Assembly (NCBI GenBank): GCA_017795005.1
Contig: CP051242.1
Location: forward strand, 3,650,119-3,714,118
Source: Balneolaceae bacterium
Lineage (GTDB): Bacteria > Bacteroidota > Rhodothermia > Balneolales > Balneolaceae
Direction of reading: 5' to 3'
Length of the DNA: 64,000 nt
The translations under genes and the position numbers were made by a program. The first letter of the stretch is position 1; the number at the start of each line of letters is the position of its first letter. The notes under the pieces are model-generated. The model saw only the letters and a program-made list of their open reading frames with translations. It was not told the DNA's origin and ran no database searches. Shown here piece by piece: positions 35,301 through 39,406 of this stretch.

Positions 35301-36051
35301 TGCACTAAAAGTATTGGAAAAGGAAAATGGCGAAGAAGAAATGCGCACTTTCCTGAAAGATGCATTGGACAGTTATTTGCTCGGGCGTTCTACTGAAGGG
35401 ATAAGAGAACGACCACTGCTTTATAATGAGAACCAACCTTATATCCATTATAACAAAGGTTCTCTGGTGTTATACGCGCTCAGCGATTATATCGGAGAAG
35501 AAAACATGAATGCAGCTTTAAGTAGATATATTGATGCCGTTGCTTTTCAGGAGGCGCCATATACTACTTCCACCGAATTTTTAAGCTATTTGGATGAAGT
35601 CACTCCGGACTCCTTGAAATATCTGCTTCATGATATGTTTGAGACTATCACGCTCTATGACAATCAGATGAAGGAATCGACCTTTAAAGAAACCGATGAT
35701 GGAAGATTTGAAATCACTCTAAACATTCAAACGTCGAAGTACGCTAACAGTCCCCAGGGCAGGAGAATTTATAAAGACGAAAACGGGGATAGTCTTTCCG
35801 TTGAAGTGGAAGGTTTATCCAAACCAATACAGTCACTCCCCTTACAAGACTGGATTGATGTAGGAGTTTTCGGAACCGATGAAGATGGAAATGAAACAGT
35901 GCTTTATATGAAGAAGCACAAATTTGATGCTATTGAATCGACCATAACCATCACCGTTGATGAAGTACCCACTTCTGCCGGAATTGATCCCTATAACAAG
36001 CTTATTGATACCGTTTCAGGAGATAATAGGAGACCTTTGAAGGAGGGGTAA
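32392..36051 (+). CDS. ABC-2 permease fused to an M1-type metallopeptidase domain
   Basis: A 1219-residue fusion. Residues 1-600 hold about 12 membrane helices in two ABC-2 permease halves (first helix PLFYIYGGIIFALATFSMAAA; second half begins near 320 with IIKGWPFIIISIIGVLISLV). The extracytoplasmic C-terminal part (about 620-1219) has an M1 peptidase fold with the zinc motif HEVAHQWW near residue 941; the expected Glu ligand is in VMSESMSEY. YIHYNKGSLVLYALSDYIG carries the likely catalytic Tyr. The exopeptidase GAMEN-type motif is not visible; the equivalent place reads SGGFAQSFANTIPYSE. The neighbouring ATPase should power it. It may couple export with peptide trimming, or use the peptidase fold for binding. 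The fold and fusion are clear; the activity is inferred. Confidence 0.9.
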   Translation: MKMFLNIFIYEIKAWLRRPLFYIYGGIIFALATFSMAAAAGIFESITVAINSVTIVNSASAVNALLNEMTLFIYFLLPSIVGGTIQKDFKYEMYSITYSYPFKKWEYLLAKFFSGLVMALFIVVFAAVGIILGSMMPGTNPDLLGPFVFMNYVQSFIYYIIPNLFFYGAIVFGVVTFSRSVSVGFITVLALVLLQGVAGSLTADLDNKVLSAMLDPFGSAANQYYTEYWSVYEQNENPLPFGSIILYNRLLWTGIGLLVFGFVYRTFSFSQQAFSFSFFRKKGEAVIKKNFGSIMAVELPKVRFDHSFVQHLKLSWSISNTDLLYIIKGWPFIIISIIGVLISLVTITVSGEIFGTNTLPVTWQMLMLPGTFFGLFINLLTFLYAGIILHRSRTYNVDQLLYVTPVPNWALLLSNFFSVIKMQALLLSTIMFVGIGVQVYNGYFNFELGLYLFDLYAIQFIHVVIWALLAIFVHTWFKNYYIGFFLLLLVSIGITFLDGIGIEQAVFKYNQAPGTPYSDMNGYGSTLGPYFVYKIYWLMLGVFFYILSILFYQRGFTDRFKQRWNQARKEFTPILSLLFMFSFGSFLFIGGYIYYVNNIENEYISSKESEAQRAQWEINYGKYEHIPQPRIVSSKIDLRIYPETRNFKAEGVYILQNKTPFVIDSIHIDHSSSETTFSFEEEFELVMEDDTMNYDIFKLAEPLQPGDSLTFYFEVWNKPNTILRNNSPILENGTFINNGLFPRIGYNPQSELIGESSREKFGLPPKDRMPPQTDSASLQNNYISYDADWIDFETTISTSPDQIAVAPGYLQEEWEEDGRRYFHYKMDSKMLNFYSFISARFEVAKDEWNGMPIEVYYHKDHDYNIDRMIKGVKRGLDYYTEEFSPYQHKQVRILEFPRTSGGFAQSFANTIPYSEAIGFIAQVDDEDDSGVDYPFNITAHEVAHQWWAHQVIGANVQGATVMSESMSEYSALKVLEKENGEEEMRTFLKDALDSYLLGRSTEGIRERPLLYNENQPYIHYNKGSLVLYALSDYIGEENMNAALSRYIDAVAFQEAPYTTSTEFLSYLDEVTPDSLKYLLHDMFETITLYDNQMKESTFKETDDGRFEITLNIQTSKYANSPQGRRIYKDENGDSLSVEVEGLSKPIQSLPLQDWIDVGVFGTDEDGNETVLYMKKHKFDAIESTITITVDEVPTSAGIDPYNKLIDTVSGDNRRPLKEG
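36041..36046 (+). promoter_or_regulatory. strong ribosome binding site (AGGAGG) for the TTG-started DUF2971 gene
   Basis: AGGAGG lies inside the last codons of the permease-peptidase gene, 9 bases before TTG 36056. It is one of the best Shine-Dalgarno matches in a window where most genes have weak ones, and it fixes the TTG start and suggests translational coupling. Confidence 0.7.
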
Positions 36052-36055
36052 ATTT

Positions 36056-36877
36056 TTGAGCATCCCTGAAAAGCTTTATAAATATCATTCTTTCGATGTT
36101 CAGTCAATTTCTAATCTGAAAAATCAGAAAATCTATTTCTCAGACCCGACTTTGTTTAATGATCCTTATGATTGTGCTTTAGATTTTAAGCTTAAACAGT
36201 TAGAAATAGATGACTATGAAAAACTATTAGAATACTATATTCCGAATAGAGATTTTCCTTTAGTACAAAAAGAAGCTCTAGAACAAGTTCTAAAAAAACT
36301 AAAGGAAGGAGAATCAATTGAAAGATTTCCAGCTCTTAGAAGTATTGAAGAAAGTTTAAAAGCTAGTTTGTTAAAAATCAGAGAGCTTAATTTCATGAAA
36401 ACAGGAGTATCATGCTTTTCTGAATGCAAAGATGATATCCTAATGTGGTCTTATTATGCAGACGGACATAAAGGTTTTTGCCTTGAGTTTGAAACCAGTT
36501 TTGATCCTTTTAAAAGAGCAATGCCTGTTAAGTATCGACAGGAATTCCCCGAAATGGAAATCACGAAAATACTCTGGGATAAAAACCCTGAAATTACTTT
36601 CGAACCATTATTAACAAAATTTGTTGATTGGAGTCATGAAAAAGAATACCGTGTTTTTCATCAAGAAAGTGGAGTTGCATTTGGGTATCCGAGTGAATCC
36701 TTGACAGGTATATATTTCGGTCCTGAAATAAAGTTTGAGCATATTGAAATAATCGCATTAATTCTTAGAGGACAAAACCCAAGCGTAAAATTGTATCAAG
36801 GGCATAGATCTAAAGAAAAATTCAAAATTGATTTTGAAGAGGTGTTCTATACTTCTTATTTAGAAAGAATGAATTGA
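36056..36877 (+). CDS. DUF2971 domain-containing protein
   Basis: A 273-residue cytoplasmic protein with the DUF2971 landmarks: LYKYHSFDVQSISNLKNQKIYFSDPTLFNDPYD at the N-terminus, GVSCFSECKDDILMWSYYADGHKGFCLEFE in the middle and WSHEKEYRVFH before IYFGPEIKFEHIEII. Homologues are scattered in bacteria and sometimes lie near defence or mobile genes, but the biochemical function is not established. The start is TTG 36056, fixed by an AGGAGG site 9 bases upstream. It lies 4 bp after the ABC-M1 fusion gene and looks coupled to it. No signal peptide or membrane helix. Confidence 0.88.
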   Translation: MSIPEKLYKYHSFDVQSISNLKNQKIYFSDPTLFNDPYDCALDFKLKQLEIDDYEKLLEYYIPNRDFPLVQKEALEQVLKKLKEGESIERFPALRSIEESLKASLLKIRELNFMKTGVSCFSECKDDILMWSYYADGHKGFCLEFETSFDPFKRAMPVKYRQEFPEMEITKILWDKNPEITFEPLLTKFVDWSHEKEYRVFHQESGVAFGYPSESLTGIYFGPEIKFEHIEIIALILRGQNPSVKLYQGHRSKEKFKIDFEEVFYTSYLERMN

Positions 36878-36879
36878 TA

Positions 36880-36986
36880 CTAATCAATCCCCAGAATCTT
36901 CTTATTCGTTTCTTCATCCACTAAACCGCCTGCAAAATCATCGAAGGTTTTTTCTGTTACGTTGATGATATGAACATCGATAAACG
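36880..36986 (-). pseudogene. 3'-end fragment of a sugar phosphate isomerase/epimerase paralogue
   Basis: The minus strand encodes the last 34 codons of a TIM-barrel isomerase: FIDVHIINVTEKTFDDFAG, GLVDEETNKKILGID and a TAG stop at 36880-36882. It aligns without gaps with the 3' end of the intact isomerase gene at 38201-38304: 7 differences in 104 bases, four of them silent. Homology stops at 36987, immediately before an unrelated hairpin element. It is a truncated copy, not an open gene. Confidence 0.85.
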
Positions 36987-37017
36987 AAAACCTTTAAAGG
37001 AAGTAGTAGCCAATTAC

Positions 37018-37159
37018 CTGTCCCACTTTGGAGAGGGACAGAGTCAAAACTTGTTTTGGCTCAGGGAGAGGAACGTGGAGCTTCGTATTCCATCGCAGCC
37101 ACTTTCCTCCCTCTGATTTCATACGAGTATGAAATCTGTCTCCCTCCAGCGGGAGACAG
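37018..37159. repeat. chain of five consecutive hairpins in an intergenic element
   Basis: Five inverted repeats follow each other almost without spacer. (1) CTGTCCC/GGGACAG, 37018-37041. (2) GAGTCAAAAC/GTTTTGGCTC with one G-T pair, 37041-37062. (3) TCAGGGAGAGGAACGTGG (37061-37078) against CCACTTTCCTCCCTCTGA (37101-37118), three mismatches. (4) GATTTCATAC/GTATGAAATC, perfect, 37115-37136. (5) CTGTCTCCC/GGGAGACAG, perfect, 37136-37159. It has no T tract, so it does not look like an ordinary terminator. It lies between the truncated isomerase copy and the 3' end of a lipoprotein gene. Confidence 0.8.
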
Positions 37160-37182
37160 AATTTGGGCACATTAAGAATAAG

Positions 37183-37968
37183 CTAGAAACAACTCACATT
37201 GTCACCATTCTCATCCCAGCACACCTGCTCCTGATCAGAGTTAAGGTAGTAACCTGTACCCGAATCTGTATTCCAGTAAATGGTGCTTGTAGAAGAATTA
37301 TCATCGGAAATTGTGAGGGTATTATCTGGTAAATTCTTCTCGTAGGTAAAACCTGAAAACGAACTTTCTCCGAATGTGATTTCGAATGTTGCTTCTGATT
37401 CACTTTCGATATCCCAGGTGTAGCTCATAACAGGAGTACTTTGCTCACCTCCGAAATCATAAAAATTCCACTGCCCACCATTGGAGGTATTTTTTACAAA
37501 GCCATCAATAAACTTGTAATTATCAAATGAGAGTTCCCCATTCGAAGCAGACAAATACATTGCCCAATCGGTTTGGGCTACTTTAACTTCTGCTGTAAGT
37601 CTAATAGTTACCGAAGCACCTGCACCCGCGCTGGTATAGCTCCATGTCCAAACTCCGTTTTCTAATTCTGCATTAACTCCCTCAGCTGAAGCCGTGAAGG
37701 TAGTTGGTAATGAACTGAAGCCCGTCATGATTGCTTCAACAGCAGCTGTTAGAGATGCTGCAATCATAAAATTCTCTCCGGTCTGACTTTCTATTTTATT
37801 TAGAACCTTTGCTTTGAAATAGTCAAACTCTGGGATGCCATCCTCAAGGTTTGGTATCTCTGGAGCAAGTTCACCTTCTACTCCGGTACCTGAATCGCTA
37901 CAGGAAGTAATAAAAAAACTGACTACTAGTAACAGAAATAGATAATTCTTAGATATAAGATATTTCAT
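37183..37968 (-). CDS. lipoprotein of unknown function
   Basis: A 261-residue protein with a lipoprotein signal (MKYLISKNYLFLLLVVSFFI, lipobox ITSC, Cys 23). The mature part starts SDSGTGVEGELAPEIPNLED, then a helical segment with a small-residue pattern (MIAASLTAAVEAIMTGFSSL), then strands with many aromatics (GVWTWSYTS, NGGQWNFYDFGG). No family is recognised. The last ten residues (CWDENGDNVSCF) hold two Cys that could form a disulfide. Upstream are 229 bases without a gene before the isomerase gene. Downstream is the five-hairpin element. Confidence 0.68.
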   Translation of the reverse strand: MKYLISKNYLFLLLVVSFFITSCSDSGTGVEGELAPEIPNLEDGIPEFDYFKAKVLNKIESQTGENFMIAASLTAAVEAIMTGFSSLPTTFTASAEGVNAELENGVWTWSYTSAGAGASVTIRLTAEVKVAQTDWAMYLSASNGELSFDNYKFIDGFVKNTSNGGQWNFYDFGGEQSTPVMSYTWDIESESEATFEITFGESSFSGFTYEKNLPDNTLTISDDNSSTSTIYWNTDSGTGYYLNSDQEQVCWDENGDNVSCF

Positions 37969-38197
37969 GATTTTGGATTAATGAATAGTTTAATTTTTAT
38001 ATACACTTAATTGTGCATGATTTTACTAAAAAAAGACAACCTATCTTAAAAAAATTAAATGCTTTTTTAAAATCGTGTTATTCCTTACAAAAAGATGGTT
38101 TTACTTCAGTAGCCTTACATAACACCTACTCGCTGAAATCAAACCATTTGATGACACACTCTCTCTCAAAAGAAAAAATTCCTCTTTATAGTTTTAT

Positions 38198-39253
38198 TCA
38201 ATCAATCCCCAGAATCTTCTTATTAGTTTCTTCATCTACTGAACCGCCTGCAAAATCATCGAAGGCTTTTTCTGTTACATTGATGATATGAGCGTCGATA
38301 AACGGCGCTCCCTCTTCGGCTCCCTGTTGTGGAGATTTTATACAGCATTCCCATTCCATCACCGCCCAACCATCAAAGCCATACTGACTTAGTTTGGTGA
38401 AAATAGCAGCAAAATCAACCTGACCATCACCCAAAGAACGGAATCTTCCCGGACGATCGGTCCAGCCTTGGTATCCACCATACACTCCAGACTTTCCGGT
38501 TGGATTGAATTCTGCATCCTTTACATGGAACATACGGATGTATTCATGATAAAAATCAATATGCTGCAAGTAATCCAGTTGCTGAAGCACATAATGACTT
38601 GGATCGTACAGCATTTTAACCGCATCATGATTTCCGGTAGCTTCTAAAAACTTCTCGAATGTAATTCCATCATGAAGATCTTCACCGGGATGAATTTCAT
38701 AACAAACATCTACTCCTTCATTCTTGCAATGATCCAGTACTGGCATCCATCGTTTTGCCAATTCTTCAAAGGCATTTTCGATTAAACCAGCAGGACGTTG
38801 CGGCCATGGATATACAAAAGGCCATGCAAGTGCTCCGGAGAAACTTGCCATTACATCAATACCCAGATGTTTACTTGCGGTTGCCGCCCATTTAACCTGC
38901 TGTTTTGCCCACTCGGTTCTTTCTTTAGGTTTCCCATGGAGTTCTTCGGGAGCGAATCCATCGAACATCACATCGAAAGCGGGATGAACAGCAACTAATT
39001 GTCCCTGCAAATGCGTGGAAAGCTCAGATATTTCTACCCCTGCTTCATTCGCAATCCCTTTTAACTCGTCACAGTAATCTTTACTGGTTCCGGCTTTTTC
39101 GAGATCAATTACACGGCTATCCCAACTTGGTACCTGAACGGCTTTGTACCCTAATCCGGCTGCCCATTCGCAAATACTTTTAAAATTATTGAACGGCTCA
39201 ACATCGTCCATAAACTGTGCTAAAAAAATCGCTGGTCCTTTTATAGTCTTCAT
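38198..39253 (-). CDS. sugar phosphate isomerase/epimerase (xylose isomerase-like TIM barrel)
   Basis: A 351-residue cytoplasmic enzyme of the AP endonuclease 2/xylose isomerase-like barrel family. Metal-site segments are in order: DVCYEIHPGEDLHDG (Glu), MLYDPSHYVLQQLDYL (Asp/His), YIRMFHVKDAEFN (His) and GWAVMEWECCIKS (Glu). The absence of a signal peptide and the pairing with a Gfo/Idh/MocA dehydrogenase gene 139 bp upstream on the same strand fit oxidation and isomerisation of a sugar or cyclitol. The exact substrate cannot be told. Its 3' end is duplicated at 36880-36986. Start MKTIKGPAIFLAQFMDD at 39253. Confidence 0.88.
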   Translation of the reverse strand: MKTIKGPAIFLAQFMDDVEPFNNFKSICEWAAGLGYKAVQVPSWDSRVIDLEKAGTSKDYCDELKGIANEAGVEISELSTHLQGQLVAVHPAFDVMFDGFAPEELHGKPKERTEWAKQQVKWAATASKHLGIDVMASFSGALAWPFVYPWPQRPAGLIENAFEELAKRWMPVLDHCKNEGVDVCYEIHPGEDLHDGITFEKFLEATGNHDAVKMLYDPSHYVLQQLDYLQHIDFYHEYIRMFHVKDAEFNPTGKSGVYGGYQGWTDRPGRFRSLGDGQVDFAAIFTKLSQYGFDGWAVMEWECCIKSPQQGAEEGAPFIDAHIINVTEKAFDDFAGGSVDEETNKKILGID

Positions 39254-39305
39254 TACTGTATATCCTGTTTGATTAATTTTTAAAACTTCGTTCCACTTGA
39301 TGTGA

Positions 39306-39406
39306 ATTAAAAATTCAAAATTAAAGATGAAAAATTGATTTAATTACTCTCCAATTTTTCATTTTGAATTTTTCATTTTGAATTCTGTTGAGCTAGTGCT
39401 CAACAG
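39306..39406. repeat. AT-rich direct and inverted repeats with a hairpin over a stop codon
   Basis: AATTTTTCATTTTG occurs twice in tandem (39353-39366 and 39367-39380). An inverted counterpart, TTCAAAATTAAAGATGAAAAATT, lies upstream at about 39314-39336. Adjacent is a perfect 9-bp stem CTGTTGAGC/GCTCAACAG (39385-39393 and 39398-39406, 4-base loop) that spans the TAG stop of the dehydrogenase. It may act as transcript end or mRNA stabiliser between the two sugar genes. Confidence 0.65.

Follow-up and report, generated by a model that had tools for sequence, protein, structure and literature searches.

What kind of sequence is the 142-bp intergenic element at 37018-37159 of the 64-kb stretch of Balneolaceae chromosome analysed here (the window), and how does such a sequence spread? 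A preliminary description made from the letters alone had read it as a chain of five abutting hairpins, and had proposed a mobile palindromic element, a structured RNA or a recombination hot spot.

Anatomy of the window element

Scanning against Rfam resolved the element into two inverted copies of whalefall-1 (RF01762) around a 30-bp middle, both above the family's gathering score of 37 and together reproducing to the base the borders first given for it. In each 56-nt half a terminal hairpin is followed by an inner hairpin and then a purine tail, and the pairing of the two tails across the middle brings the number of stems to five. The features are:

37018-37041, + strand: terminal hairpin of the A unit (pyrimidine arm, loop, purine arm), from the Rfam match and the unit table
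37042-37061, + strand: inner hairpin of the A unit with covarying stem, from the Rfam match and covariation
37062-37073, + strand: purine tail of the A unit, CAGGGAGAGGAA, candidate third strand, forming the central stem together with the B tail
37018-37073, + strand: entire A unit, whalefall-1 (RF01762), 58.6 bits, failing the triplex-motif scan described below
37074-37103, no strand: 30-bp middle, the position taken by a DUF559 gene in the gene-bearing genomic copy
37104-37159, - strand: entire B unit, whalefall-1 (RF01762), 54.5 bits, matching the triplex-motif scan at 37107-37159
37104-37115, - strand: purine tail of the B unit, CAGAGGGAGGAA (letters of the - strand), mirror image of the purine arm of its own hairpin
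37116-37135, - strand: inner hairpin of the B unit with covarying stem, from covariation
37136-37159, - strand: terminal hairpin of the B unit, from the Rfam match

Folding z-scores were -5.49 (+ strand) and -5.56 (- strand), and none of 200 dinucleotide shuffles folded equally well. The chain of five hairpins is the predicted fold of the - strand; it is not the minimum-energy fold of the + strand, where the two halves pair with each other. The likeness that had been noticed between stems 1 and 5 is real, these being the A-type and B-type versions of one unit. Rfam flags neither a tRNA nor a CRISPR at the element, and no T run follows the stems as read from the sequence, in agreement with the earlier exclusion of a tRNA, a CRISPR and a terminator. 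The truncated isomerase copy said to adjoin the element is also there, as ~110 bp at 36880-36990 that repeat the 3' end of the isomerase gene at 38198-38305. One stretch of a relative, G001, matches both of these copies, and the presence of the fragment beside the element looks incidental.

Dispersed A and B units in inverted pairs

The genome that holds the window (G000; 3.75 Mb, single contig) carries at least 54 whalefall-1 units over the Rfam cut-off and six weaker ones, 150 of 639 first-look candidates having been scored. The units fall into an A type, with terminal hairpin CTGTCCCTCC..GGAGGGACAG and tail CAGGGAGAGGAC, and a B type, with terminal hairpin CTGTCTCCC..GGGAGACAG and tail CAGAGGGAGGAC (unit table). 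Every one of the 26 close pairs (gap under 120 bp; one unit with a damaged tail typed by its arm) joins an A to a B in opposite orientation. Twenty-two are arranged tail to tail, like the window element, 21 of them with a spacing of 29-32 bp and the remaining one with 71 bp, and the other four are inside out, with gaps of 4 bp (two) and 49 bp (two). Across genomes, whalefall-1 was matched in 16 of 58 searched, G000 included, and over the cut-off in eight; in a wider sample, 13 of 296 genomes had matches over the cut-off, all from the same family. No common target was obvious by eye in the 25-bp outer flanks of the dispersed copies. The 30-bp middle was considered as a copy of the target and rejected: its inner 10 bp differ between copies, but the flanks hold no match to it (by eye).

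In the two inside-out pairs with 4-bp gaps (1940163-1940281 and 2545235-2545350 of the single contig C1), the outer ends are joined and the tails point toward the host sequence; that at 1940163 is common to G000 and G001. These two pairs of the 26 fit a possible circular or tandem intermediate. At six other places on the contig (741057, 1123520, 1668126, 2110784, 3105949 and 3244122) the terminal hairpin is ~20 nt longer through a second palindrome (CCTGCCTGTCGGCAGACAGG and relatives).

Covariation of the stems was assessed over 49 pairs in an alignment of 17 of the 22 tail-to-tail elements, leaving out four with a 20-odd-base hairpin insertion and the one with 71-bp spacing. Pairing holds in 92.1% of cells, and both sides have changed in 17 of the 49 pairs. 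The covariation score of 0.308 compares with 0.119 for shuffled alignments, none of 500 of which reached the observed value, and with 0.032-0.067 when partners were slid. One of the five covariation measures, the number of further pair types, showed no excess (35 vs 35.4 in shuffles). Most of the covariation lies in the inner hairpins (7/9 and 6/8 pairs); among the 17 elements the sequence of the terminal hairpins and of the central stem hardly varies. The preliminary description was to be given up if related genomes held no further copies and the stems no compensatory changes; with copies and changes both found, those grounds fall away.

A gene-bearing copy encodes a predicted nuclease

One genomic locus, 2721597-2722372, reads in order A(-), 49 bp, B(+), a 132-codon gene, A(-), 49 bp, B(+). 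The gene belongs to DUF559 (PF04480; 103.9 bits against a Pfam curated cut-off of 20.6), so that its B(+)-DUF559-A(-) core amounts to the 142-bp element with the 30-bp middle swapped for a gene. The last codons of the gene (SSL-stop) fall inside the B tail. G001 has a similar arrangement next to the same neighbouring gene, with an in-frame stop in its DUF559 copy, and altogether nine genomes of the family have a DUF559 gene within ~200 bp of a whalefall-1 match (G000, G001, G002, G005, G014, G018, G021, G028 and G032), two of these matches, in G002 and G021, falling under the cut-off. The dN/dS ratio was 0.09 for G000-G018, at a dS of 2.1 that is near saturation, and 0.16 for G018-G028, dS not being computable for G000-G028; by these comparisons the gene appears to be under purifying selection.

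An AlphaFold model of the protein (pLDDT 88) has as its nearest folds, and nearest solved structures, NGO0050 (3hrl) and the homing endonuclease I-Bth0305I (3r3p), and a profile search likewise placed these two first. The protein also carries invariant acidic residues and is a predicted Vsr-like PD-(D/E)XK nuclease of the YcjD family. I-Bth0305I is labelled a mobile-intron protein, whereas DUF559 here forms a one-domain gene between palindromes. Another DUF559 protein, VsrA of Caulobacter, has been discussed as a mismatch-repair nuclease (PMC12907096).

This arrangement bears on whether the units are RNA or DNA. If whalefall-1 were an expressed small RNA, the inverted pair would be two RNA genes or one long hairpin RNA. 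Its entry in Rfam, the matches over the cut-off and the strong covariation of the inner stems all agree with that, and Weinberg et al. (2010; PMC2864571) rate whalefall-1 as 'certainly' RNA. Hairpins in DNA would show stem covariation equally, however, and an RNA leaves unexplained why all 26 close pairs combine an A and a B in opposite orientation, as in E. coli BoxC, and why a nuclease gene stands between units. The tail moreover mirrors the purine arm, and purine-motif triplexes are reportedly not formed by RNA (Holder et al. 2015, PMC4666352). We therefore hold a structured RNA to be very improbable; the inverted pairing and the nuclease gene suggest a DNA element, and of the three explanations first proposed the mobile palindromic element is the best supported. 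Both halves of the element match whalefall-1 over its full length; this family was described as a small RNA and from whale-fall DNA only (PMC2864571), but here it is a Balneolaceae repeat, usually in inverted pairs and with a nuclease gene in one copy.

The mobile DNA element could instead be a REPIN-type doublet moved by the RAYT (Y1_Tnp) of its own genome. Many dispersed inverted doublets of palindromic units are indeed the REPIN layout, the genome has five Y1_Tnp matches, and Bacteroidetes RAYTs of subclass 2.6 have atypical flanking structures (PMC6006769). But all five Y1_Tnp genes lie more than 12 kb from any whalefall-1 match listed, for which reason we rejected RAYT as the partner, and it is a DUF559 gene that stands beside or between units in several genera. 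Nor did inspection by eye of the flanks of 60 genomic matches find a fixed GT[AG]G tag at the hairpin foot. Mobilization by a RAYT is thus hardly credible, and DUF559 stays the favoured partner. With REPIN/RAYT (BIME) the present system shares the inverted palindrome doublet, one or few enzyme genes set in the same palindromes and many gene-less copies; it differs in its enzyme, which is a predicted Vsr-like PD-(D/E)XK nuclease and not a Y1 HUH transposase, and in its ends, which are of triplex type and have no GTAG tag. MITEs are likewise short, paired and gene-less, and derive from an element that has the same ends and codes for the enzyme (B-gene-A vs A-30 bp-B here), but neither a target-site duplication nor a transposase was found in our case.

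The units resemble BoxC/PIT/TM in anatomy

Inspection of the flanks of 16 DUF559 loci revealed a shared plan, in which a hairpin with pyrimidine and purine arms is followed by a tail mirroring the purine arm. The same plan is known from E. coli, where BoxC was found in the chromosome in the 1990s, PIT elements followed in 2000 and triplex motifs in 2015 (PMC4666352). Holder et al. (2015; PMC4666352) counted 23 copies in MG1655, all of them intergenic and of types A and B, including five inverted pairs that each join an A to a B; they found no link to transposons, phages or plasmids and tied the motifs to local instability. The portion of that paper available to us proposes no enzyme, and the terms 'nuclease', 'DUF' and 'ycjD' do not occur in it.

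The units of this genome agree with BoxC/PIT/TM in the existence of types A and B, in inverted pairs that are always A/B, and in occurring also beside a DUF559 gene, which in E. coli is ycjD; the hairpin with a mirror purine tail appears to be common to both as well. The tail-to-tail spacing is near (16-27 bp in four of the five E. coli pairs vs 29-32 bp here; PMC4666352, Table 1). Different are the sequence itself, since the window units as read do not match the E. coli consensus CCCTCNCCCN3-6GGGNGAGGGN3GGGNGAGGG, and the length, 56 nt against ~36, with an extra covarying inner hairpin. By its anatomy the element would thus be of the BoxC/PIT/TM kind, in what appears to be a separate sequence family. 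It would work like REPIN/RAYT, and the nuclease partner is the new part.

We expressed the plan as a motif scan (pyrimidine arm, loop, purine arm, linker, mirror third strand) and, before applying it to the DUF559 loci, relaxed it with the E. coli consensus and the window as guides. The scan finds the E. coli consensus and has a single match in the window, the B unit at 37107-37159; eight dinucleotide shuffles of the window gave five matches in total. Allowing a linker of up to 60, 45 of the 54 genomic units pass a tail-mirror criterion, but so do 514 of 1080 tail-permuted controls; for these units the criterion is weakly specific and partly reflects composition.

DUF559 genes stand between opposed motifs in many phyla

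Among 80 DUF559 loci picked by protein similarity with their flanks ignored, the scan, which was not fully blind in that the 16 loci inspected beforehand are among those tested, found a motif within 300 bp of the gene in 75, on both sides in 46, and in 70 of 74 outside Balneolota; the other five of the 80 had none within that distance. The density of motifs within 150 bp is 6.35 per kb upstream and 6.57 per kb downstream, falling to 0.00-0.29 per kb at 500-3000 bp. Among 87 control ORFs taken from these loci at distances above 1 kb, 7 had a motif within 300 bp. In 40 of the 80 loci, real flank pairs held a motif in 40 of 40 and shuffled ones in 6 of 400. The median distance from the gene is 33 bp upstream and 18 bp downstream. 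Orientation is strongly biased in this main set: of the 55 loci with an upstream motif inside 150 bp, the nearest is (+) in 48 and (-) in seven (p 1e-8), and of the 60 with a downstream one it is (-) in 56 and (+) in four (p 9e-13).

A Balneolaceae-side set of 41 genes, which excludes the long-frame, broken, partial or out-of-family loci L104, L111, L113, L120, L123, L126 and L127, had a motif within 300 bp in 33 and none in eight. No orientation bias was seen in this set over 0-150 bp (upstream 23(+)/19(-), downstream 16(+)/22(-)), perhaps because elements stand in tandem on both sides. In a second sample, from a phylum-wide Pfam search, 14 of 15 single-domain DUF559 genes had a motif within 300 bp, the exception lying at a contig end, and the orientation bias was weak (upstream 8(+)/2(-), downstream 8(-)/5(+)). 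The 14 control genomes of that Pfam search include an E. coli that was not flagged for PF04480, though MG1655 has ycjD. All eight DUF559 loci taken from 38 records of a plasmid collection (two of them from E. coli) have a motif within ~175 bp. On one of these, a plasmid of Photobacterium sp. GJ3 (L265), triplex motifs recur every ~150 bp downstream of the DUF559 gene, like tandem gene-less elements.

An earlier comparison of left and right 400-bp flanks, since superseded by the motif scan and covering the 69 of the 80 loci whose flanks were long enough, gave a score of at least 25 in 43 of these 69, which come from many phyla, but in just 5 of 98 control ORFs. On the Balneolaceae side, such scores were reached at 29 of 40 loci; the figure was 1 of 13 among controls and 14 of 297 among cross-locus pairs.

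DUF559 and its motifs lie in frame inside long genes

We examined 12 long frames that contain DUF559 in frame, 11 from the wider Pfam sample (L280-L283, L285, L286, L288, L291, L293, L299 and L304) and one from G001 (L145). By Pfam the host proteins are PheT (one), LeuRS (two), MetH (two), HsdR (two), HsdM (one), a type ISP restriction-modification protein, a DNA methylase, an MmeI-like methyltransferase and a GATase_5 protein. A motif lies within 300 bp of the DUF559 stretch in all 12 and on both sides in ten, the two leuS cases having one only downstream and only upstream, respectively; orientation is unbiased (upstream 7(+)/4(-), downstream 5(-)/6(+)). For example, PheT of G001 has 994 aa with the DUF559 insert, while G000 and G002 have 809 aa and 811 aa without it, and in the alignment with G000 the match ends at residue 204 and restarts at 400. 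In several of the long-frame proteins the terminal hairpins translate as low-complexity linkers, such as SPLPLGEG. Among our results, insertion of DUF559 with its motifs into unrelated conserved genes is the strongest sign of mobility.

Such insertions also invite comparison with free-standing homing endonucleases: DUF559 might cut unoccupied targets, with double-strand-break repair then copying the element in. Both the sequence and the fold of the protein are related to I-Bth0305I. Insertion in frame in pheT, leuS and metH would suit homing as well, DUF559 lying at much the same point of the protein in the two leuS genes and likewise in the two metH genes, although each two come from one family and may share the site by ancestry. 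So would the alleles seen, since no target-site duplication was visible at aligned sites, whether within the genus, at high divergence, or in E. coli. What makes homing rather unlikely to us is the dispersal of copies over sites without an obvious common target, together with gene-less copies whose two conserved ends suggest that ends, and not a target, are recognized; recognition of the ends by DUF559 remains the reading that we prefer.

Presence and absence among relatives and in E. coli

At the site of the window element itself, the preceding gene is followed in G001 by a single decayed A unit, and in G002 the scan finds no motif; 36048-38199 of the window is replaced by ~260 bp in G001 and by ~3.1 kb in G002. 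Seven further sites were compared within the genus, where divergence is high and exact borders are mostly blurred. The element is absent from G001 at 2126388, present in G001 but absent from G002 at 1940163, and present in G001 at 1165695, 1421936 and 1540552; no alignment was obtained for 1123520. At 540382, G001 (L238) has a palindrome of another family and G002 has none, so that this site is possibly an insertion hot spot.

In E. coli the DUF559 gene is ycjD (Pfam E 3e-49), located between sapF and fabI at 1351407-1351760 of MG1655, and copy 9 of Holder et al. (1351204-1351239), which our scan finds at the same place, lies ~170 bp past its 3' end. At least 80% of the ycjD region is present in 3362 of 5426 E. 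coli genomes. Other E. coli have an eefRABCD operon at this place (PMC12817139), and efflux genes were found there in the three such strains that we checked. In a sample of 60 strains spread over 5393 E. coli records, in 720 of which the number of motif places is a lower bound (at least), the 37 with their best match at ycjD have 20-37 places (median 27) and the 23 others 1-21 (median 5), all 23 still carrying some. This is the link that ycjD-driven amplification predicts, but it is confounded with phylogroup, and the ranges touch at 20-21.

Individual motif pairs vary as well. At fepB-entC, at least 80% of the query is present in 2752 of 5426 genomes, and three absent alleles are short by a net 186 bp that includes the motif pair; at hrpB-mrcB, ~117 bp are replaced by 15 bp in two absent alleles; one alx-sstT allele is short by 76 bp between two CCCTCTCCC repeats, an internal deletion; and at ygfF-gcvP, where at least 80% is present in 3018 genomes, the others sampled also lack a neighbouring stretch. 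The paired motifs are thus polymorphic in E. coli, but the absent alleles are not clean, and loss could explain part of the variation.

These alleles, in resembling deletions or replacements, would also suit passive, structure-prone triplex repeats that spread through replication slippage or recombination, with DUF559 attracted to them or policing them but not moving them. The link of the motifs to local instability (Holder et al. 2015, PMC4666352) points the same way, and a Vsr-like protein could be a repair enzyme. Yet the gene of a policing enzyme needs no place between opposed units in distant phyla, nor in frame, with flanking motifs, within unrelated genes, and E. coli strains with ycjD have more motif places, not fewer. 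We consider a passive origin decidedly unlikely and an active role of DUF559 the better account.

A model for DUF559-driven movement

In our estimate the probability is about 0.7 that the 142 bp represent a non-autonomous copy, without the gene, of a mobile DNA element driven by DUF559. The movement itself we infer; in its support stand the dispersal of the units, their A/B inverted pairing, the covariation, the association of DUF559 with the motif in many phyla, the in-frame occurrences of DUF559 and the variation in presence and absence. The complete form would read unit(+), DUF559 endonuclease gene, unit(-), each unit being a palindrome of the intrastrand-triplex type, with a pyrimidine/purine hairpin and, behind it, a purine tail as mirror image of the purine arm. 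The units would fold where the DNA is single-stranded or extruded; the DUF559 protein, as the putative mover, would bind the folded ends and cut beside them, at or near the tail, and host repair or replication might then copy or insert the element elsewhere and rejoin the ends. Gene-bearing copies would provide the enzyme in trans to gene-less ones, that of the window included.

We further think it more likely than not that this is a widespread class of bacterial mobile elements without transposase or recombinase, in which one Vsr-like nuclease (DUF559/YcjD) recognizes triplex-forming palindromic ends and so disperses both gene-bearing cassettes, some of them in frame in essential genes, and gene-less doublets that include BoxC/PIT/TM and whalefall-1, at least in Bacteroidota, Planctomycetota, Cyanobacteriota and Pseudomonadota. 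Within titles and abstract openings, a range that mostly leaves out subscription papers, we found no link of DUF559/YcjD to BoxC/PIT/TM or to whalefall-1. If correct, the model would assign a function to DUF559, whose family name still reads 'unknown', would shift whalefall-1 from RNA to mobile DNA, and would add to the ways in which short repeats reshape bacterial chromosomes one that needs only a nuclease, even through in-frame insertion in essential genes. A fixed genetic partner of BoxC would also make its origin testable in a laboratory strain.

Other DUF559 genes and palindromes of the genome

A Pfam search gave seven DUF559 matches in G000. Palindromes of a different family, which is dispersed as well, flank the tandem pair at 3491633/3492226, and five of the six weak whalefall-1 matches lie within 60 bp of copies of that family. 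The gene at 1473473 shares flank sequence with a fragment locus at 2492587, and for those at 245645 and 1830156 no palindrome copies were found in the 273 kb of genome searched. By eye, a conserved stretch like TTTTGTAAGGAAT lies a few tens of nucleotides before DUF559 genes, together with a small leader hairpin, at L064, L139, L141, L154 and L157; possibly it is the control region of the gene. The window itself holds another dispersed palindrome, at 39280-39392 between the isomerase gene and the next gene. Being AT-rich and away from DUF559 genes, it was rejected as a second DUF559-linked family; it has 16 matches at ~11 places in the genome and more in G001 and G002.
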